Source: Bradyrhizobium sp. CB2312 (GTDB lineage: Bacteria > Pseudomonadota > Alphaproteobacteria > Rhizobiales > Xanthobacteraceae). Taken from it: 64,000 nt of DNA. The stretch spans positions 496,001 to 560,000 of the forward strand of contig NZ_CP121668.1 of assembly GCF_029714425.1 (NCBI RefSeq), written 5' to 3'. The position numbers and the translations under genes are program-made. Shown one piece after another: positions 21,446 to 62,732 of the stretch (position 1 is its first letter; the number at the start of each line of letters is the position of its first letter). The notes beneath the pieces were generated by a model. The model had not been told where the DNA came from. It made no database searches and saw only the letters and a list, made by a program, of their open reading frames with translations.

Positions 21446-21593
21446 CCCTCTCCCCTTGTGGGAGAGGGTGGCTCGCCGCGGAGCGGCGAGACGGGTGAGG
21501 GGTACCTATCCGCGCGCGAAGCCGCCTGTTGAGCCCGCGGAAGCAACCCCTCATCCGGCGCTTCGCGCCACCTTCTCCCACAAGGGGAGAAGG
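21446..21593. repeat. Palindromic intergenic repeat, family R2, copy 3
   Basis: The arms CCCTCTCCCCTTGTGGGAGA and TTCTCCCACAAGGGGAGAAG enclose GGCTCGCCGCGGAGCGGCGAG and GGCGCTTCGCGCC hairpins. It is nearly the same as the copy at 62561-62712 and lies between convergent genes, where it may terminate both. Confidence 0.88.
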
Positions 21594-21631
21594 AAGAAAG
21601 AAGAGGCGTTCGCAGGGACGACGGCGGCTTG

Positions 21632-23793: not shown

Positions 23794-23889
23794 TCGTAGG
23801 GTGGGCAAAGGCGCGCTCTTCGCGCCGTGCCCACGATCTCTTTGTGGCGCAAGACGTGGTGGGCACGCTTCGCTTTGCCCACCCTACGA
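23794..23889. repeat. Palindromic intergenic repeat, family R1, copy 1
   Basis: The arms TCGTAGGGTGGGCAAAG and CTTTGCCCACCCTACGA are exact complements, with an inner GGCGCGCTCTTCGCGCC hairpin and a GTGCCCAC/GTGGGCAC pair. Copies recur at 26945, 32581 and 37229. It lies between two genes on the minus strand. Confidence 0.92.
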
Positions 23890-23917
23890 GACCTGCGTCC
23901 GGGGCACGAGACCGGAG

Positions 23918-26924: not shown

Positions 26925-26944
26925 TTCGCGGCAATCGCAGCTCT

Positions 26945-27047
26945 TGTAGGGTGGGCAAAGGCGCAAAGCGCCGTGCCCACCATCTTTTACGTTTCGATAG
27001 AAAGACGTCGAAGGACGTGGGCACGCTCCGCTTTGCCCACCCTACGA
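26945..27047. repeat. Palindromic intergenic repeat, family R1, copy 2
   Basis: TGTAGGGTGGGCAAAG pairs with CTTTGCCCACCCTACGA across an interior that is longer and more AT-rich (TTTTACGTTTCGATAGAAAG) than in the other copies. It lies just after the pseudo-caspase stop. Confidence 0.9.
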
Positions 27048-32571: not shown

Positions 32572-32580
32572 CCTTGATGT

Positions 32581-32670
32581 CGTAGGGTGGGCAAAGGCGC
32601 ACTTCGCGCCGTGCCCACCATCTCTCGCGGATGGAGGATTGGTGGGCACGCTGCGCTTTGCCCACCCTAC
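32581..32670. repeat. Palindromic intergenic repeat, family R1, copy 3
   Basis: CGTAGGGTGGGCAAAGGCGC pairs with GCGCTTTGCCCACCCTAC, with inner GTGCCCACCA / TGGTGGGCAC arms. It starts 9 bp after the chemoreceptor stop, between convergent genes. Confidence 0.92.
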
Positions 32671-32685
32671 AAGAATTCCAGACGC

Positions 32686-37228: not shown

Positions 37229-37321
37229 CGTAGGGTGGGCAAAGGCGCCCTTGCGCCGTGCCCACCACCTCTTCGTGGCCGCAAAAAGCGCGTGGGCACG
37301 CTTCGCTTTGCCCACCCTACG
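37229..37321. repeat. Palindromic intergenic repeat, family R1, copy 4
   Basis: CGTAGGGTGGGCAAAGGCGC pairs with GCTTTGCCCACCCTACG, with an inner GTGCCCAC / GTGGGCAC pair and a short TCGTGGCCGCAAAAAGCG middle. It lies between two minus-strand genes. Confidence 0.92.
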
Positions 37322-37337
37322 AAGTCACGAAACGGCC

Positions 37338-39232: not shown

Positions 39233-39338
39233 GGATTTCTGCGACGCTTTGACCGCCGACGCGCGGGAACCTTTGGTTCCGCTCTGAGTCATCCCCTTGC
39301 GGCGCGATACGCGCTTGGCACTGGAGGAGGGCCAAGAC

Positions 39339-40655
39339 GTGTTCAAGCAAGACGTGTTCAACTCAGTGGTCAGTTCGATGGTCATGTCGAGATCGCGCAT
39401 TGGACCGGCGCTCGCGGGTGCACTCCTCGCGATTCTGGTAGTGCTGCTGCCTGGTAGAGCCGAGGCGCAGTTCGGGTTGCGCGGCGGTCCGCTCGGCGTC
39501 GCGCGCTTCGCCGTCGGCCACATGATCGGCATGTCGCGGCTGCGCCACTCCCGCATGGCGGTGCGGGGCAGCCGATACCGCTCCGCCGCGCTGAGATCGC
39601 AGGATCCGCGCGGCGCCGAGCGCGGTCAGCCGCCCAATCCCTACATCCTGCGTGCCGCGCTCACGGCGCAAGCTGCGCTGTCCGGCTGGCGTGGCGGCCG
39701 CCGTCCGCAGGGCTGGTGGCGCCATCCCGACGGCAGCTATGGCTGGGCCGGCCCGGTGTTCTGGCCGTTCGCGCAGGACGATCTCGCCAATGCCGTCATC
39801 CTTGGCGATATGACCAGCCTCTCGCTCTATGGTTATGGCGACATCTATGCCGCGATCTTCGCGCCCTATGCCGCGACTGAGCTCGCCGCCTATACCGCGC
39901 CGCAAGGCCGGCGCACGCGCAGGGTTCCGTCGGCGCAGAACGTCTGTGATGCCAGCGATCCCGCTGGTTTTCCAATGGATCGCATCGTCGCCGCCGTGCA
40001 GCCGAACGAAGAACAGCGCATGGCGCTCGACGATTTCGGTGCCGCCTGGCTGGCGGCCCGCGACAGCATTCGCGCGGCCTGCCCGGCAGGAGTGCCCGCG
40101 ACCGCAGCGGAGCGCCTCGGCCTGATGCACGAGCGCGTCGCGGCGATGATCAAGGCGACCGACGCGGTCGCAGCGCCGCTGGCAAAGTTCGAGGGCCTGC
40201 TCGACGACGGCCAGAAGAAAAAGCTCGATGCGCTCGGCCAGGAGCGTCGCGCCGCGCTCGCGGCCGGCCAGAAGAAGGACTCGCAGGCGGCAAGCGCCTG
40301 CGAGGCCGACAACGATCCGCGCTATGATGTGCAGATGCAGCGCCAGTACGAGCAGCTCGTGCAGCAGCAATGGCCCGCCGCCGACATCGGCTCGACGCTC
40401 AAGCTCGACGACACCGGCCGCGCACGCTTTGAGGTGCTTCAGGACACCACGCTGCGCACCATGGAGACGCTGAGCCCGTGCACGACGAAATCCGCAGCGA
40501 CCCCGCAAGCCCGCCTCGCTGCGGTGAAGGCGCGGCTCGGCGCGATGCTGGAGGCAGTCAACGCCGTCGGCGATGCGCTCGATGATTTCGAGGCAGACTT
40601 GACCGACGAGCAGAAGGCCGCCTTCGAGGCGATCGGTCCGAAGCGGGGGGTGTGA
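39339..40655 (+). CDS. Exported LTxxQ-motif (Spy/CpxP-like) protein
   Basis: The 438-residue protein has a signal-like hydrophobic segment (ALAGALLAILVVLLPGRAEA). The N-terminal half is Gly/Tyr-rich. The C-terminal half has two similar helical repeats, each with a Cys-containing start and the pattern L-x-D-x-Q-K (DDGQKKKLDALG; LTDEQKAAFEAIG), as in Spy-type periplasmic chaperones. The GTG at 39339 follows GGAGGAGG and is chosen over an earlier TTG. Its last 75 bp occur again, decayed, at 41367-41440 beyond the vapBC genes. Confidence 0.75.
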   Translation: MFKQDVFNSVVSSMVMSRSRIGPALAGALLAILVVLLPGRAEAQFGLRGGPLGVARFAVGHMIGMSRLRHSRMAVRGSRYRSAALRSQDPRGAERGQPPNPYILRAALTAQAALSGWRGGRRPQGWWRHPDGSYGWAGPVFWPFAQDDLANAVILGDMTSLSLYGYGDIYAAIFAPYAATELAAYTAPQGRRTRRVPSAQNVCDASDPAGFPMDRIVAAVQPNEEQRMALDDFGAAWLAARDSIRAACPAGVPATAAERLGLMHERVAAMIKATDAVAAPLAKFEGLLDDGQKKKLDALGQERRAALAAGQKKDSQAASACEADNDPRYDVQMQRQYEQLVQQQWPAADIGSTLKLDDTGRARFEVLQDTTLRTMETLSPCTTKSAATPQARLAAVKARLGAMLEAVNAVGDALDDFEADLTDEQKAAFEAIGPKRGV

Positions 40656-40692
40656 GCATCCTCTCGACTTGAAGCGGGAGAATATCCAGTCT

Positions 40693-40720
40693 ATGATATA
40701 CAGTAATTAATGTATATCAT
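40693..40720. promoter_or_regulatory. Inverted-repeat operator over the vapB start
   Basis: Arms ATGATATACA and TGTATATCAT (10 of 10 pairing) flank an 8-base spacer and cover the ATG codons of the antitoxin gene. VapBC and MazEF operons are usually autorepressed through such palindromes. The local AT content is far above the surroundings. Confidence 0.75.
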
Positions 40721-40961
40721 GGAGTTTTCGGTGCTGGTTTCCAAGTGGGGAAATAGCTTGGCGGTTCGGCTGCCCAAGGCACTCGTTGAGGCTCTGAAGC
40801 TTTCACCGGGCGACGAGCTCAATGTGGTGGAAGCCTCGAAGGGCCGGCTCGCAGTGGAGAAGGTTGACAAGCGCGCGGAATTTCTCCGGCAGGTCGAGCA
40901 GTTCCAGTTTCCGTTGCCTGAAGACTACAAATTCGACCGCGACGAAGCGAACGAGCGGTGA
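40710..40961 (+). CDS. vapB: AbrB/MazE-fold antitoxin (VapB)
   Basis: The 83-residue protein has an N-terminal SpoVT/AbrB swapped-hairpin DNA-binding domain (VSKWGNSLAVRLPKALVEAL, then PGDELNVVE) and a C-terminal tail that would wrap the toxin. It may begin at 40710 or at the in-frame ATG at 40719 (80 residues); both codons fall inside the operator palindrome. It overlaps the toxin start by 4 bp. Role: bind and neutralise the PIN toxin and repress the operon. Confidence 0.88.
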   Translation: MYIMEFSVLVSKWGNSLAVRLPKALVEALKLSPGDELNVVEASKGRLAVEKVDKRAEFLRQVEQFQFPLPEDYKFDRDEANER

Positions 40962-41359
40962 GTGCTTTCTTCGACAGCAATATCCTGATCTACGCCTACT
41001 CAACGGACACAAGGCGGCAGCGGGCGCTGACGACGATTGCCGGCGGTGGCATCATCAGCGCGCAGGTGCTGAACGAGTTCACCAACGTGCTGCGCAAGAA
41101 GCAAAGGCAGGATTGGCCGGTGATCGAGGCGGCCGTGCAGTCTCTGCGCTTCCGCTTTCCAGACATCGTGCCGCTGACGTCGGACACGCACACTGCGGCG
41201 CTTGCGCTCGCGCGCGACCACACGCTCGCCTTCTATGACGCCCTGATCGTCGCCGCCGCGATCGAGGCCGGCTGCGACACGCTCTACAGCGAAGACCTGC
41301 AACACAGCCGCAGCTTCAGTGGGCTCACCATCGTCAATCCGTTTCTTGGCAGCACGTGA
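40958..41359 (+). CDS. vapC: PIN-domain RNase toxin (VapC)
   Basis: The 133-residue protein is a single PIN domain. Acidic residues expected to hold the metal are in FFDSNILIYAY, VLNEFTNVL and FYDALIVAAA, with a final Asp in TLYSEDLQH. VapC toxins cut tRNA or rRNA when released from VapB. Translation starts at a GTG inside the vapB stop region (GTGA), so the two are coupled. All key residues look intact. Confidence 0.88.
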   Translation: MSAFFDSNILIYAYSTDTRRQRALTTIAGGGIISAQVLNEFTNVLRKKQRQDWPVIEAAVQSLRFRFPDIVPLTSDTHTAALALARDHTLAFYDALIVAAAIEAGCDTLYSEDLQHSRSFSGLTIVNPFLGST

Positions 41360-41366
41360 TCCGTCC

Positions 41367-41440
41367 GATGACTTCAAGACGAATCTGACCGACCAGCAGA
41401 TGGCGCCCTCGAGGCGATCGGTCCGAAACGGGGAGTGTGA
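41367..41440 (+). pseudogene. Decayed copy of the 3' end of the LTxxQ gene
   Basis: These 74 bp align with the last 75 bp of the gene ending at 40655: I count 61 matches of 75, one 1-base gap, and 32 of 35 in the final part. The copy encodes DDFKTNLTDQQMA, then loses the frame at the gap. It lies 7 bp after the vapC stop and runs up to the stop codon of the next, convergent gene. Confidence 0.85.
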
Positions 41441-42268
41441 TCACCCACACGCCCAGTCGAACTTCATATCCCTGAAGTCGAGCTGCGCATTGCCGCCGCC
41501 GAAATTGTAGCCGCCGAAATATTCCTCGAACTCGACGTAGAACGGGCTCATCTCCGGCACTGCCTGGCACGGCCGCATGGTGCCGCCGAGATGGTTGTGG
41601 GCGTGGTCCTTGCTCCAGTCGTGCAGGCGGAAATTGTCGCGGCCAGGGACGCCGCCGACATAGTAGTAATAGGGCTGATAGCCGGTCGGCGGGTTTTCCT
41701 TGGTGTACTCGTCCTGCGGCCCCTTGCCGGCGTTTGGATCCATCGCGCGCGGACTCAGGGCGATGGCGCGGGTCTCGCTGAGATCGGCGCGCGGCGACGC
41801 TGAAAACATCTTCTTCGCGTAAGGCGCGGCAGCCTCGAAGAACGCGCAGGCGCCGCCGACATCGAGCCAGCGCGGCCGGTCGGCCGTCGCCAGCGCAAGC
41901 GGCTCCGGCGGCGTTGTGAATGCGCCTTCGTACTCATTCTTGGTCAGCAGCAGCGCCGCATATTCGTAGTCGAGAATATCGGTCATGCGCGACAGCCGCG
42001 GATGCGAGGAGCGCGCCATCACCGCCTCGCGGATTTCAGGATCATCGGGCGCGCCGCCGTCATTGTGATCGGGCGCAGTGGCAAAGAACGACACCGCGAC
42101 GATGTCCGCGCCATGCACGCGATAATCCTCCGGCAGCAGCAGCGTAAAACCGTGCATCAGCGGATAGCCGGTGACGGGATCGAGCGGCCATTGCTCGCTA
42201 CTGATGCCCGGCGGCAGTCCATAAACCCAGCCCTGGTCGCGCGCCCGCTCAGTGGGACGGTCCAGCAT
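41441..42268 (-). CDS. Protein of unknown function (about 275 residues)
   Basis: No signal peptide or membrane segment is seen. The protein is rich in aromatic residues and prolines, with blocks YPLMHGFTLLLPEDYR, VSFFATAPDHNDGG and, at the C-terminus, FDWACG. A DH-rich segment (LHDWSKDHAHNHLGG) could bind metal. The start is uncertain: ATGs exist at 42268 and 42406 and neither has a good ribosome-binding site; the shorter is taken because the extra N-terminal part looks like non-coding composition. Its 3' end abuts the decayed LTxxQ fragment. Confidence 0.6.
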   Translation of the reverse strand: MLDRPTERARDQGWVYGLPPGISSEQWPLDPVTGYPLMHGFTLLLPEDYRVHGADIVAVSFFATAPDHNDGGAPDDPEIREAVMARSSHPRLSRMTDILDYEYAALLLTKNEYEGAFTTPPEPLALATADRPRWLDVGGACAFFEAAAPYAKKMFSASPRADLSETRAIALSPRAMDPNAGKGPQDEYTKENPPTGYQPYYYYVGGVPGRDNFRLHDWSKDHAHNHLGGTMRPCQAVPEMSPFYVEFEEYFGGYNFGGGNAQLDFRDMKFDWACG

Positions 42269-55432: not shown

Positions 55433-55815
55433 AATCAGCGCGGTCCAGCCAAAAAGGCGCCGTTCCCAGCTTGCGCCGCGGCGACCTTAACTTACGCTCC
55501 AGGCATTATCAAACCCGGGAAGGGGGGCGTCAACCGCTTGGAGATTCGGGGTAATCGCGACGATTGATCGCAACGCATGGGCGCGCCGGGAGGAGAATGA
55601 ACTGGCTGTCATGATTGCGGCTCGATGCGATCCGGTTCGACATTTACGGCTGCATGTTAGGGCAGGCGTGGCGAAGAGAATGTGATTGGCCTCACATCGC
55701 AGGCTCACATGGCAGGTTCGCGGTCACCGCAGCCTCCGGCGTTTGACCTTTCTTGCGGACAATGGCTTGGTGCGCCCGATCGTCCCGCAAGATCCAACGC
55801 AAGAAAAGCAAGACC
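55433..55815. promoter_or_regulatory. Promoter region of the lactonase gene, 383 bp
   Basis: This gap lies upstream of both divergent genes (pseudo-caspase minus, lactonase plus). It holds the Crp-type site at 55681-55696. No repeat-family copy is present, and I see no convincing small gene in it. Confidence 0.4.
55681..55696. promoter_or_regulatory. Perfect Crp-consensus site
   Basis: TGTGATTGGCCTCACA is TGTGA-N6-TCACA, matching the enterobacterial Crp half-sites exactly. It lies 120 bp upstream of the lactonase start. The window encodes a Crp-like factor and an adenylate cyclase, so binding is plausible but not shown. Confidence 0.55.
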
Positions 55816-56622
55816 ATGGGAAACGCCTACGAAATCTACGCGCTGCGCTATGCGACGATGTCGCCTCGCACCCCCAACATGAATTTTTTGGCGCCCGACC
55901 CGCATGACAGCGCGGCGCAGGACCTCGACTATTTCGTCTGGCTGATCCGGGGGCAGGGCCGCGACATCCTGGTTGATACCGGCTTCAATGCCGAGGAGGC
56001 GAGCGCGCGGGCGCGCAAGCTGACGCTGAATCCGGTCGATGCGCTGGAGCGCTTTGGTGTCGCTGCCTCAGCCATTCGCGACATCATCGTGACGCATCTG
56101 CATTACGATCACGCCGGCAATCTCGACCGCTTCCCGAACGCGCGCTTTCATCTCCAGGAGCGCGAGATGGCTTACGCGACCGGCCGCTGCATGTGCAACG
56201 GCCTGCTGCGACATCCGTTCACGGTCGAGCACGTCACGCAGATGGTGCGCCATGTCTATGGCGAGCGCGTCACGTTCTATTCCGGCGACGGCGAGGTTGC
56301 GCCCGGCGTCACCGTGCATCGTGTCGGCGGCCATTCGGACGGCTTGCAGGTGGTCAAGGTCGAGACCGCGCGCGGGCCGGTGGTGCTGGCGTCCGACGCC
56401 GCGCATTACTACGCCAATCTCCAGCGCCGGAGCCCGTTCCCGATCGTCTACAATGTCGGCGACATGGCGGCAGGCTGGGAAACGATCGAGCGTCTCGCCG
56501 GGCATCCTGATCGATTCATTCCCGGTCACGATCCGATCGTGACGGAAATCTATCCGCGCGCCAGCGACAAGGTCGATGCCTGGGCGCTGCATCTGCCGCC
56601 AACGCGGTCGTTTGCGAAATGA
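55816..56622 (+). CDS. MBL-fold lactonase, AHL-lactonase-like
   Basis: The 268-residue protein is a metallo-beta-lactamase-fold hydrolase with a complete two-metal site: THLHYDHAGN (H94, H96, D98, H99), the later His in VGGHSDGLQVV, Asp in LASDAAHYYAN and His in FIPGHDP. Length and order match AttM/AiiA-type N-acyl-homoserine lactonases, which open the lactone ring of quorum-sensing signals. Other lactones are possible. The start at 55816 (MGNAYEIYAL) fits family proteins; an earlier in-frame ATG gives a basic non-family lead. A Crp-type site lies upstream. Confidence 0.82.
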   Translation: MGNAYEIYALRYATMSPRTPNMNFLAPDPHDSAAQDLDYFVWLIRGQGRDILVDTGFNAEEASARARKLTLNPVDALERFGVAASAIRDIIVTHLHYDHAGNLDRFPNARFHLQEREMAYATGRCMCNGLLRHPFTVEHVTQMVRHVYGERVTFYSGDGEVAPGVTVHRVGGHSDGLQVVKVETARGPVVLASDAAHYYANLQRRSPFPIVYNVGDMAAGWETIERLAGHPDRFIPGHDPIVTEIYPRASDKVDAWALHLPPTRSFAK

Positions 56623-56631
56623 CGCGATAGC

Positions 56632-56754
56632 GTCATTCCGGGATGCGCCGAAGGCGCAGGCCCGGAATCCATAACCACGATCGGGCGTATGGATTCTCAG
56701 ATGCGCAATTTGCGCATCATAGCTCGCGCCCAAGAGGGCGCGCCCCGGAATGAC
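56632..56754. repeat. Palindromic intergenic repeat, family R3, copy 2
   Basis: It starts GTCATTCCGGGATGCGCC and ends GCCCCGGAATGAC, sharing CCCGGAATCCATAACCACGA with the copy at 14294. This copy has two additional inner hairpins (GATGCGCAATTTGCGCATC and GCGCCCAAGAGGGCGC). Confidence 0.87.
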
Positions 56755-56762
56755 AGCAGAGA

Positions 56763-56835
56763 CTAATACGCCTGCTTGGCGTCCGCTTCTTCGCTGGTCA
56801 GGGCTCGCTTCGATCTTGCCGAGCAGGATCGAGAG
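56763..56835 (-). pseudogene. Decayed copy of the marR 3' end
   Basis: Read on the plus strand, this stretch matches 57722 onward: 34 of 38 bases, then a deletion of about 11 bases, then 23 of 25 bases. On the coding strand it begins with LLGKIEAS (marR has LLGKIEES), loses frame at the deletion, and ends at the same TAG codon. The methyltransferase gene lies between this copy and the intact marR end. Confidence 0.85.
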
Positions 56836-56920
56836 CGCCGGTTTGAGTCTCAACCGGCAATTCCAGTCTGACCTTTTCTTCGGACGTGTGCAGTCTCCGA
56901 GACGGGCGGCCGGCGTGGTA

Positions 56921-57664
56921 TCAACGCGTGCCGGCAGGATCCGCGCAAGCAACGATATCGCGGGGAGATTTTCGCGCCGCTAGCTCCGGCGGAGAGAATA
57001 TCGCCAAATATCCTGCGTCCCTTGCGAGCTGATATGCGGCGACCTCGCGATAGCCGACGGCAGTCAATTCGCAGCGCAAGAGCTCGATTGGCGTGCCATG
57101 CTTCGATGTCGGAAGCTCAAGATCGACAATCCCGACCCGCGCACCCCGCTTCAAGGCAGGCGCGAGATTGTAGAGGAAGGCATAGGGTTGGGCTATCTCG
57201 TGATACATGTGCACGAGGATTGCGGCATCCAGCGAGGAAGCGGGCAGACGCGGGTCATGTGGTTCGCCGAGGGCGAATTGCACGTTCGTCAACTTCAGAA
57301 GTTCTGTTCGCCTTGCGAGTTCGATCAGGTACTCCCGCGTGACGTCCTGGGCAATGACAGAGCCGGCGGGTCCGACGAGGCGCGAGAGCCTCACCGTGTG
57401 GTACCCACTGCCTGCTCCAATGTCGCCGACCGTCATACCCGGTTTCAGTTCGAGAGCACGTGCGATCTGTCCGGCCTCATTGAGGGCGTCGCGGCGCTCT
57501 TCGGCGGCGCGGCGTGCGCTGACGATCTGTGCAACAGGGCGCTGCGGTGAGGGAAACTCGCTTGCAGCGACTCCGGGCGGAGCCAGATAACCTATGTCAG
57601 CGGCGTATGCGCGCGTTGCGGCAAATGCCACAAGTAGCACCGCGATATGAGCCAGTGCCTTCAC
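56921..57664 (-). CDS. Exported class I SAM methyltransferase-like protein
   Basis: The 247-residue protein has a Sec signal peptide (LAHIAVLLVAFAATRAYA) followed by a Rossmann methyltransferase domain: MTVGDIGAGSGYHTVRLS (SAM motif I), VIAQDVTREYL, and LDAAILVHMYHEIAQP. The arrangement resembles the COG4798-type predicted methyltransferases, which often carry signal peptides. SAM is not expected in the periplasm, so it could have another role. The GTG at 57664 is chosen (AGG nearby) over an upstream TTG. It lies 57 bp after marR, on the same strand. Confidence 0.78.
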   Translation of the reverse strand: MKALAHIAVLLVAFAATRAYAADIGYLAPPGVAASEFPSPQRPVAQIVSARRAAEERRDALNEAGQIARALELKPGMTVGDIGAGSGYHTVRLSRLVGPAGSVIAQDVTREYLIELARRTELLKLTNVQFALGEPHDPRLPASSLDAAILVHMYHEIAQPYAFLYNLAPALKRGARVGIVDLELPTSKHGTPIELLRCELTAVGYREVAAYQLARDAGYLAIFSPPELAARKSPRDIVACADPAGTR

Positions 57665-57721
57665 GAGCCTGCCACGCTTTCTCAATTGGTAGAGGCGTCT
57701 GCGCCTCTCTGCGTATACGCT

Positions 57722-58264
57722 CTAATACGCCTGCTTCGCGTCGGCCTCTTCGCTGGTCTGGATCAGGTCGAGGCTCTCCTCGATCTTGCCGAGCAGCGCA
57801 GAGAGCTGCTTGCGCTCCTGCGCGGAGAGGCAGGCGAGGATCTCGTCTTCCCGCCGCAAGAGTTGCGGGAACAGCTCTTCGTACAGCGCGCGGCCCTTCT
57901 TGGTCAGTTGCAGGCGGAATTCGCGGCGGTCGGCTTCGTTCTCGACGCGCTCGATCAGCTGTGCATTGAGCAGGGTGGTCACCGCGCGGCTGATGGTGGA
58001 TTTGTGCGTGCGGGTGCATTGCGAGATGTACTGCGCGCTGCAGGCATCGTTGCGGAAGCCGAGCGTGGCGATTACGCGCCAGGCTGGAATGTCGAGGCCG
58101 TGGCGTTCCTGATATTCGACCGCGAGCGCGGAACTCACCTCCGCCGCGAGCCGGTTGAGGCGGAACGGCACGAACTTGAACAGATCGAGGCGCGCCTTCG
58201 GCCGCAGTGAAGCCTCATCGGCTTGCCGCGTCTTCAGCGCGATGTCGCTGGATGTCCTCGCCAA
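57722..58264 (-). CDS. MarR-family transcription regulator
   Basis: The 180-residue protein is a MarR dimer-type regulator: helices FVPFRLNRLAAEVSSAL, the winged helix ISQCTRTHKSTISRAVTTLLNAQLIERVENEADRREFRLQLTKKG in parts, and the C-terminal dimer helices. No ATG is in a suitable place. A TTG at 58264 has GGAG 8 bp upstream and fits the domain boundary. It is divergent from the homogentisate operon and probably represses it until an aromatic acid binds. Its 3' end occurs a second time at 56763. Confidence 0.85.
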   Translation of the reverse strand: MARTSSDIALKTRQADEASLRPKARLDLFKFVPFRLNRLAAEVSSALAVEYQERHGLDIPAWRVIATLGFRNDACSAQYISQCTRTHKSTISRAVTTLLNAQLIERVENEADRREFRLQLTKKGRALYEELFPQLLRREDEILACLSAQERKQLSALLGKIEESLDLIQTSEEADAKQAY

Positions 58265-58312
58265 GGAGAGCGCTCCGAATTCCAGTTGACGGCCGGCCGG
58301 CTCCGGTCCAAA

Positions 58313-58332
58313 ATAGTTGCACGTGAGACTAT
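58313..58332. promoter_or_regulatory. Imperfect 20-bp palindrome, likely MarR operator
   Basis: ATAGTTGCACGTGAGACTAT has symmetric outer ATAGT/ACTAT and a central CACGTG, with 16 of 20 positions symmetric. It lies in the 110-bp divergent promoter gap between marR and the hydroxylase gene. Confidence 0.6.
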
Positions 58333-58374: not shown

Positions 58375-59994
58375 ATGGCGCCGGCCAATACGCGAAAGGC
58401 CAAGACCCAGTTCGGCTATCGCCGCCACCTCGACCAGGATCGCCCCAGCCCAAATCCGGCCGAGCATCCGGTGGTGGTTGTCGGCGCCGGCCCGGTCGGG
58501 CTGTCGCTGGCGATCGACCTCGCCCAGCGCGGTCAGCGCGTCGTCCTGCTGGATGATGCCGACCGCATCGGCGAAGGTTCGCGCGCAATCTGCTTCTCGA
58601 AGCGCTCGCTGGAATATTGGGACCGGCTCGGTGTCGGCGACCGCATGGTCGACAAGGGCGTGGTCTGGGGCGTCGGCCGCATCTTCCACGGCGAGTCGCA
58701 GCTCTATCAGTTCAACCTGCTGCCCGAGGACGGTCACAAGCGGCCGGCCTTCATCAACCTCCAGCAATATTACGCCGAGGCCTATCTGGTCGATCGCATC
58801 GGTGATCTGCCCGCGATCGACCTGCGCTGGCGCAACAAGGTGACGGCGGTGGAGAGTCGCAACGATTCCGTGGTGCTGACGATCGACACGCCGGAGGGCC
58901 CCTATCGCCTCCACGCGCAATATGTCATCGCCTGCGACGGGGCGCGCTCCTCGCTGCGCCAGATGGTCGGCGCCGACTTTGCCGGACAGGTGTTCGAGGA
59001 CCAGTTCCTGATCGCCGACGTCAAGATGACGGCGGAATTCCCGACCGAGCGCTGGTTCTGGTTCGATCCGCCGTTCCATGCGGGACGCTCGGCGCTGCTG
59101 CACCGGCAGCCCGACGATGTCTGGCGCATCGACCTCCAGCTCAACCGCTATGCCGATCCCGTGGTCGAGAAGAAGCCTGAGAACGTACGGCCGCGGATCG
59201 CGCGCATGCTCGGCCACGACCAGTTCGAGTTCGAGTGGATCTCGCTCTACAAATTCCAGTGCCGCCGGATGGACCGCTTCATCCATGGCCGCGTGATCTT
59301 TGCCGGCGATTCAGCGCACCAGGTCTCGCCGTTCGGCGCACGCGGCGCGAACTCGGGGCTCGAGGATGCCGAGAATCTCTCCTGGAAGCTCGACCGCGTG
59401 CTCCGTGGCACGTCGCCGGCGAGCCTGCTCGAAAGCTACCATGTCGAGCGGAGCTTCGCGGCCGACGAGAACATCCGCGAATCCACCCGTTCGACCGATT
59501 TCATGGCGCCGAACTCGCACCAGGAAGCGCGGCTGCGCAAGGCAGTGCTGTCGCTCGCCAAGGAAACCGAGTTCGGCAAGCGCATGGTCAATGGCGGCCG
59601 GCTCTCGGTGCCGTGCAGCTATGACTCGCCGCTGTCATCGCTTGATACAGATGAGTGGCGCGCTGGCCCTTCTCCCGGCTGTTCCATGCTCGACGCTCCT
59701 GTTGCCGGCGAGCAGGCCTATCTGACCGATGCGTTCCGCAAGGGTGGAACGGATTTTACCTTGATGTCGTTCAACAATGGCGCGGCGACCGACGTGCCGG
59801 AAGGGCTGAAGGATATCCGCATCGGCGGCGAGGATGGGCTTGCCGATCCCCAGGGCCTGGTCGCAAAGCGCTACGACGCCGGGCCGGGCGCAGCCTATTT
59901 GCTCAGGCCCGATGGCTATGTCGCAGCGCGCTTCCGCCATCCGACGCGCGAGGCGATTGCGGCGGCGCTGTCGCGCGCCATAGGCGTCAGTTGA
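58375..59994 (+). CDS. FAD-dependent aromatic-ring hydroxylase (MhaA/MhpA-like)
   Basis: The 539-residue protein is a group A flavoprotein monooxygenase: GxGxxG dinucleotide motif in VVVGAGPVGLSLA (about 35-47), DG motif in IACDGARSSLRQ and GD motif FAGDSAHQVSPFGARGANSG. The C-terminal thioredoxin-like domain is also expected from the length. It inserts oxygen into a phenolic acid using NAD(P)H. The next genes break down homogentisate, so a likely reaction is 3-hydroxyphenylacetate to homogentisate, as in the MhaAB system of Pseudomonas putida U. GAGG precedes the ATG. Confidence 0.85.
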   Translation: MAPANTRKAKTQFGYRRHLDQDRPSPNPAEHPVVVVGAGPVGLSLAIDLAQRGQRVVLLDDADRIGEGSRAICFSKRSLEYWDRLGVGDRMVDKGVVWGVGRIFHGESQLYQFNLLPEDGHKRPAFINLQQYYAEAYLVDRIGDLPAIDLRWRNKVTAVESRNDSVVLTIDTPEGPYRLHAQYVIACDGARSSLRQMVGADFAGQVFEDQFLIADVKMTAEFPTERWFWFDPPFHAGRSALLHRQPDDVWRIDLQLNRYADPVVEKKPENVRPRIARMLGHDQFEFEWISLYKFQCRRMDRFIHGRVIFAGDSAHQVSPFGARGANSGLEDAENLSWKLDRVLRGTSPASLLESYHVERSFAADENIRESTRSTDFMAPNSHQEARLRKAVLSLAKETEFGKRMVNGGRLSVPCSYDSPLSSLDTDEWRAGPSPGCSMLDAPVAGEQAYLTDAFRKGGTDFTLMSFNNGAATDVPEGLKDIRIGGEDGLADPQGLVAKRYDAGPGAAYLLRPDGYVAARFRHPTREAIAAALSRAIGVS

Positions 59995-62560: not shown

Positions 62561-62712
62561 CCCTCTCCCCTTGTGGGAGAGGGTGGCTCGCCGCGATAGC
62601 GGCGAGACGGGTGAGGGGTCTCTCTCCGCGAGCGACTCTCTTGCAATTGAGTTCGCTGATAGAGACCCCTCATCCGGCGCTTCGCGCCACCTTCTCCCAC
62701 AAGGGGAGAAGG
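62561..62712. repeat. Palindromic intergenic repeat, family R2, copy 4
   Basis: It carries CCCTCTCCCCTTGTGGGAGA / TTCTCCCACAAGGGGAGAAG arms and inner GGCTCGCCGCGATAGCGGCGAG and GGCGCTTCGCGCC hairpins, nearly the same as the copy at 21446. It lies inside the operon between hmgA and fahA, 21 bp before the latter start. Confidence 0.9.
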
Positions 62713-62732
62713 AAGAAAGAATCGAGCGAAAA

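Follow-up and report, generated by a model that had tools for sequence, protein, structure and literature searches.

In the window (the whole 64-kb stretch of DNA that was analysed), a methyltransferase gene stands between an intact marR-family regulator gene and a worn second copy of the 3' end of that gene. The reading that we favour, with moderate confidence, is that a cassette with IS5-type ends and a YTAR target carried the methyltransferase as its passenger, and that the marR repeat came from a later recombination anchored in marR. Taken as a whole, the route seems to combine known kinds of process in a new way.

The features of the site are listed below; here and throughout, G-numbers label genomes and L-numbers label fetched loci.

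58375..59994, plus strand: FAD-dependent monooxygenase-like gene, left neighbour of the site (Pfam FAD_binding_3)
57722..58324, minus strand: intact marR-family regulator gene (Pfam MarR_2)
57722-57725, minus strand: TTAG (minus-strand reading) holding the marR stop codon, the YTAR target
57682..57721, minus strand: degenerate left cassette end directly after the marR stop (from its position and by-eye alignment to relatives)
56921..57685, minus strand: cargo, class I SAM methyltransferase (Pfam PCMT, Methyltransf_31, Methyltransf_25)
56837..56920, no strand: right cassette part 3' of the methyltransferase, right inverted repeat missing (from comparison with G047 and G171, which retain it)
56763..56836, minus strand: displaced, decayed marR 3' end, marR positions about 519-603
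56631..56762, no strand: native flank on the downstream side, containing a dispersed REP-like palindrome; flank of a similar kind lies directly after marR in empty genomes
55753..56622, plus strand: metallo-beta-lactamase-fold (MBL) gene, right neighbour of the site (Pfam Lactamase_B)

The gene-end repeat in the window

When the window was compared with itself, positions 56763-56826 aligned to 57722-57796, the last 75 bases of marR on the minus strand, with 59 identities in 75 columns and two gaps amounting to 11 bases (65 bits, E 1.7e-10); a repeat search at the same pair gave 90% over 40 nt and 80% over 41 nt. The E value rules out a chance origin and bears out the earlier note, which had described a decayed marR 3' end recurring at 56763-56835. 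The same note had held that the 886 bp separating the two copies contain nothing but the methyltransferase, and the ORF list and Pfam agree, the spacer holding the ORF at 56921-57685 on the minus strand and no transposase. The methyltransferase has relatives at 91% identity in protein matches, and its N-terminus looks by eye like a signal peptide, which is odd for an enzyme requiring SAM.

As a background, fourteen evenly spaced 20-kb stretches of the same chromosome were scanned for pairs of 40-500 nt lying 400-5000 bp apart (E 1e-6). Two pairs were obtained in total, the first distant from any stop codon and the second touching an ORF end, but between two similar adjacent genes. Because neither of them is a case of the gene-end-repeat pattern, that pattern is not common background in the stretches scanned.

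Repeats of other kinds also occur in the window. The REP-like palindromic repeat at 56631-56758 has dozens of chromosomal relatives, and similar repeats stand directly after marR in many empty genomes. Four copies of a repeat of ~95-105 bp, 74-87% identical, lie within 14 kb (23794-23891, 26943-27047, 32580-32674 and 37229-37322), and a dispersed 160-bp repeat at 21446-21602 and 62561-62721 is 88% identical, with a further match in inverted orientation at 70%.

Empty and occupied marR loci in the genus

For comparison, 195 genomes of the genus were searched for the methyltransferase and for marR, and marR loci were fetched from the 97 genomes, including the window's own, that had near-full-length marR matches among the matches listed. 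Fifty-eight of these loci are empty, the match to the neighbouring gene starting 4 to 341 bp past the marR stop, and 39 are occupied by inserts of 0.6 to 7.7 kb carrying varied cargo before the next gene, counts that refer to the matches listed and are not corrected for relatedness of the genomes. The methyltransferase adjoins marR in 24 of the 195 genomes searched. Inspected by eye, the ORF lists of 28 inserts hold at least 15 unrelated kinds of cargo, among which, besides the methyltransferase, are single genes that by their look encode a substrate-binding protein, an O-methyltransferase and a cytochrome-like protein. Some loci hold arrays, one with three displaced marR ends in G117 and others in G136 and G079. 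As judged from these sequences, the marR site is one that accepts many different cassettes across related bacteria. The earlier note had claimed an insertion at marR and had suggested comparing occupied with empty loci in genomes of the genus; the claim stands, since both states were found, and the cargo proved to be mostly short and varied.

The remaining marR matches listed are partial and form a more distant group, 20 of which were inspected. One of them (G023) has an insertion of its own, an apparent cyclase-TPR gene, with a displaced marR end. A marR gene of this distant clade was also considered as the source of the left end, and was not seen as such in the 20 loci.

Of the 24 methyltransferase loci, 14 were found to have a second marR 3' end, whose length ranges from about 65 to 180 nt. 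The flank after the second copy is in 11 of them, including the window's own, by eye of the kind that directly follows marR in empty genomes, and foreign DNA directly follows the intact marR; in the other three (G068, G136 and G079) the displaced copy is followed by a second cassette or other sequence and not by native flank. Because its flank matches the post-marR flank of empty genomes, the worn copy is, on this comparison, the displaced native 3' end of marR. The earlier note had named as its refuting case an old tandem duplication of marR, the second copy being mostly deleted and the methyltransferase ending up between the two. Some displaced copies are indeed longer than that of the window, the one in G068 reaching about 180 nt and the one in G136 about 165 nt, as such a history would allow. 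However, no longer second marR was found in the downstream DNA fetched for any of the 97 loci (among the matches listed), and marR of the empty loci runs directly into the neighbouring flank, the same kind of flank that the displaced end adjoins. A tandem duplication is thus very improbable, and insertion stands.

The displaced ends also resemble one another. The haplotype ATCGAAGC occurs in 11 of 17 displaced copies, over different cargos, as against 0 of 58 empty marR genes and 4 of 39 intact marR genes of occupied loci. This suggests that the displaced ends are of common descent across cargos, the joint having arisen once and later spread into different native flanks. When similarity was compared half by half, the mean identity of the displaced copies was not above that of empty genes (0.839 vs 0.857 and 0.901 vs 0.929), so that a crossover mosaic lacks support beyond the short ATCGAAGC haplotype, and overall similarity did not mark either marR end as donor-derived.

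Cassette ends, units and transposase

In relatives, the cassettes have a left inverted repeat GGCGTGTACTCATAAA, a right one that is its inverse, and the target YTAR, which is that of the IS5 subgroup. Consistent end motifs, which the earlier note had proposed to look for, are therefore present in relatives. A pattern search placed the left-end motif at 67 positions in 54 of 195 genomes of the genus, with no hit for a reversed-pattern control. YTAR directly precedes the left end in 10 of 30 fetched places, marR included, several others being preceded by different bases; outside marR it does so in 6 of 26 fetched places, as against 0.08% of window positions. With a stricter pattern that includes YTAR, hits were obtained in 52 of 248 genomes of the family and 19 of 47 genera (control 0).

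The units that have GGCGTGTACTCATAAA at one end and its inverse at the other differ in the genes they hold, which are unrelated, and in two genomes the same flanks, by eye, enclose different cargo (L283 and L286). Of the 13 units of the set found with YTAR in the pattern, 7 have an identical 4-base YTAG on both sides, and in the set found without it 6 of the 9 rows that have a right repeat show YTAR on the right side. Inside one unit of a related genome, close to its end, is encoded a 272-aa protein that matches the NCBIfam IS5 transposase NF033580 at 1.3e-90, as well as Pfam DUF4096 and DDE_Tnp_1. ORF lists read by eye gave one full transposase and two units with transposase pieces among the 13 units of the YTAR pattern, and genes of other IS families in two of the 9 units found without YTAR. 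The window's own genome has pieces of the IS5 transposase at 57-81% identity, several of them with stops, and distant matches at 33-51%. From their ends, these units may be classed as IS5-type mobile insertion cassettes that mostly lack a transposase and would be moved in trans.

The end signals are faint at the window locus. The 16-base cassette end is absent from both strands of the 64-kb window at up to 4 mismatches, the left-end profile gave no score for its marR locus (E 0.05), and the right-end repeat has no match in its own genome at E 0.001. The window copy is probably a member of the cassette family, and its membership rests on relatives.

Some further observations concern the family at large. 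The same cassette left end follows the same host gene in L223 (at 9.36 Mb of G002) and L224 (at 9.28 Mb of G000), and at the corresponding site of the window's own genome an IS110-like gene, by eye, stands between the host gene and the left end. Some cassette units contain other IS genes. The right-end repeat of some cassettes seems by eye to include the end of an ABC_sub_bind gene, and isolated C-terminal matches to ABC_sub_bind occur in G000 (contig C1, positions 3161241, 3438381, 4070855 and 5729268); these are perhaps further displaced gene ends. The left-end element was also considered as a known RNA, and no relevant Rfam match was found in three loci.

The stop codon as target and the timing of the repeat

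YTAR stands at the marR stop in all 39 occupied loci (35 with TTAG) vs 34 of the 58 empty ones, among the matches listed (Fisher 4e-7, kinship uncorrected), and each of the 24 marR genes with a TGA stop belongs to an empty locus. An insertion into a YTAG that contains the stop codon does not truncate the gene, and this would account for the exact meeting of the intact copy and the cassette; alternatively, the TAG stop could come from the cassette itself. An insertion point at the marR stop, with marR kept whole, and the arrays described above would also suit site-specific integration, in which a tyrosine or serine recombinase would act on an attachment site at the marR 3' end and integrase-less islands would accrete in tandem. 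We consider this improbable, because by-eye reading of ORF lists from 28 inserts, the largest of 7.7 kb, revealed no recombinase gene, because many inserts have no detected marR repeat, so that an attachment repeat is not always present on both sides, and because the same cassette ends occur at many other places in the genomes.

The left-end profile scores directly after marR in 18 of the 39 occupied loci, two of which (G011 and G129) were in its training set. Ends on both sides of the insert, some of them weak, were seen at marR in G104, G123, G177, G129, G047, G018 and G171, and the profile scores five of these seven, missing G104 and G018. On the right, the decamer of the right repeat occurs near the MBL gene, with up to 2 mismatches, in 9 of 38 occupied loci vs 1 of 48 empty ones. 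No right-hand TTAG follows the right inverted repeat at marR, where the only YTAR is that on the left; a clean target duplication is thus not seen at this site.

Among the 24 methyltransferase loci, the right inverted repeat is retained beside the neighbouring gene in eight, and in seven of the 24 it is kept and no marR repeat was found. G068 is the only methyltransferase locus with both, and its right inverted repeat belongs to a second cassette. That case aside, no right inverted repeat appeared in our scans of the 14 loci with a marR repeat, the first of these scans having missed three of the eight positive loci. Three loci (G058, G060 and G188) show neither state, G188 with an 18-nt trace. 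In the 15 occupied loci with other cargo, the marR repeat is clear in G117 and left a 30-nt trace in G034. In five cargo contexts (G142, G011, G084 and two in G117), the joint falls by eye within the right-end repeat, at a short stretch that resembles marR. Since seven of the 24 loci keep the right inverted repeat without the marR repeat, the latter probably arose later than the insertion and was not made by the insertion itself.

No paired inverted repeats were found at 20 other loci of the methyltransferase gene that were inspected, which indicates that it travels by other routes too. A mobile unit defined by the methyltransferase was considered and set aside, as these 20 loci have no flanking direct repeats, with the exception of G012, where the repeats belong to apparent paralogous neighbours.

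Similar arrangements at other genes

The earlier note had reported the pattern at two loci of the window, and the same geometry is confirmed at a toxin-antitoxin locus, whose repeat pair (40572-40661 vs 41358-41446, 80% over 90 nt, E 7.6e-15 in the window self-comparison) is, we think, the partner case that it had in mind. The parts of this locus are the following.

40572..40661, plus strand: 3' end, including the stop, of the host gene at 39297-40655
40710..41359, plus strand: cargo, MazE-type antitoxin and PIN-domain toxin
41358..41446, plus strand: displaced native 3' end, followed by native flank as in empty relatives

In 30 loci compared, including the window's own, the stop is followed by native flank at a distance of at most 8 bp in eight others, and in G014 the toxin-antitoxin pair is present and no repeat was detected. 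The site is variable, 18 of the 30 loci (L302-L331) having other DNA after the stop of the host gene. Ends of the cassette family are absent from this locus in the window search at up to 4 mismatches. The toxin-antitoxin case would therefore have a recombination scar in common with marR, but no IS5-type element was seen there. The earlier note had proposed a shared, perhaps undescribed, route of '3'-end capture' for both loci. A single mechanism of this kind found no support, as relatives show IS5-type ends and insertions without the repeat at marR, and the toxin-antitoxin locus is without such ends.

Elsewhere in the genus, two host genes with a left-end motif at their stop have long gene-end repeats. 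In G017, 255 nt of the end of a TPR-like gene (by eye) are repeated at 94% after an arylsulfatase-like gene, and in G081, 119 nt of an exporter-like gene (by eye) are repeated at 91% after an RlpA-like gene. A second left end follows the repeat in G081, and in G017 merely its first 11 bases or so. The remaining left-end places inspected have no comparable gene-end repeat.

Long gene-end repeats at three host genes of the genus (marR and those of G017 and G081), and one at the toxin-antitoxin locus of the window, raise the question of whether the repeat was made in a single step, the cassette moving as a unit and duplicating some 85-255 bp of target on insertion, a process that has been put forward for restriction-modification genes. 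Insertion with a long target duplication is said to have been described for restriction-modification systems by Nobusato in 2000. For the cassettes at marR we find it rather unlikely. The seven methyltransferase loci with a right inverted repeat and no marR repeat stand against it, and so does the fact that in loci bearing the repeat no right inverted repeat was found before it (the second cassette of G068 aside). Furthermore, the joint falls inside the right-end repeat where that repeat is present, and the displaced ends have a common haplotype across cargos.

Proposed route and comparison with known systems

In the route that we propose instead, a cassette would first insert at the TTAG holding the marR stop and leave marR whole, a step supported by relatives. 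The filled locus would then enter empty strains through recombination anchored in marR. The incoming fragment would comprise a marR end and the cargo, and would probably be circularised, its right end joined to marR about 85-190 bp from the stop; a single crossover with the resident marR would leave a whole marR, the cargo, and a marR 3' end on the resident native flank. In a last step, the displaced end may act as a portable homology arm, by which cargo would spread and stack into arrays through ordinary recombination. In the window's own genome, the right inverted repeat would afterwards have been lost and the left one have degenerated, with the displaced end decaying.

There is a close precedent for the second step. 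In E. coli, DNA homologous to a gene end was integrated mainly via a single crossover after recircularisation, and part of the gene end was duplicated in 56 of 60 clones, the duplication measuring 109-950 bp in the 14 sequenced (PMC3240628). Such a crossover gives the order observed here, namely whole gene, cargo, truncated gene end and native flank. That homology-facilitated illegitimate recombination is alike in turning one-sided homology to a gene end into an insertion with partial duplication of the end, whereas for this genus we infer natural transfer. The arrays of orphan immunity genes of the T6SS in Vibrio cholerae (PMC5361080) are also alike, in their anchored one-sided entry (a putative mechanism according to the authors), in the displacement of the old 3' part downstream, and in the arrays themselves. 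There, however, the displaced part is an immunity gene, and no inverted-repeat element is mentioned in the available part of that report. By these E. coli and Vibrio precedents, the marR repeat of this genus probably originated by single crossover.

As for the cassettes, mobile insertion cassettes such as MIC231 of Bacillus cereus and mic-qnrD are alike in having a passenger gene between short inverted repeats and no transposase nearby; a related IS is believed to mobilise them in trans, and their cargo varies under the same ends (PMC3913671). The marR family differs from them in its IS5-type ends, YTAR target, many cargo types, recurrent stop-codon site and arrays, and the window locus in having one end lost and the other degenerate. 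The IS5 family (NF033580) is linked by the unit that has these ends and encodes a full-length transposase match, although most cassette units show no transposase in their ORF lists read by eye. Passenger genes have also been described in IS4-family elements (PMC2266710). The long target duplication of restriction-modification genes is similar in that direct repeats of around 100 bp enclose a short cargo (PMC3874152), but at marR there are insertions without the repeat, and the repeat is found at the position of a missing element end. The G117 array is similar in look to integron cassette arrays.

In the literature covered, the string GTGTACTCATAAA occurred in one unrelated paper only, and among the titles and abstracts covered on Bradyrhizobium, MITEs or mobile insertion cassettes none was seen to describe the cassette family; the coverage of these sources was limited, and absence from them proves little. 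What seems new is the combination of a passenger-cassette family in the genus with a recurrent stop-codon site at marR, the displaced ends possibly being homology arms. More tentatively, and with considerable doubt, Bradyrhizobium may have an integrase-free system in which IS5-ended single-gene cassettes use the stops of anchor genes, the 3' end of the anchor serving as a homology arm in the manner of an integron attachment site. A cassette would then pick up the 3' end of its anchor at the joint, and subsequently spread and stack between strains.

The striking anatomy of the site, in which an intact gene end and a worn one enclose a short cargo, would be explained by two ordinary and testable processes: one-sided recombination at gene ends, and a passenger-carrying IS5-type cassette able to hit stop codons. 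If displaced ends do act as portable arms, single accessory genes would spread among soil bacteria at fixed sites without integrase, plasmid or phage, and such sites could be found by searching for displaced gene ends.
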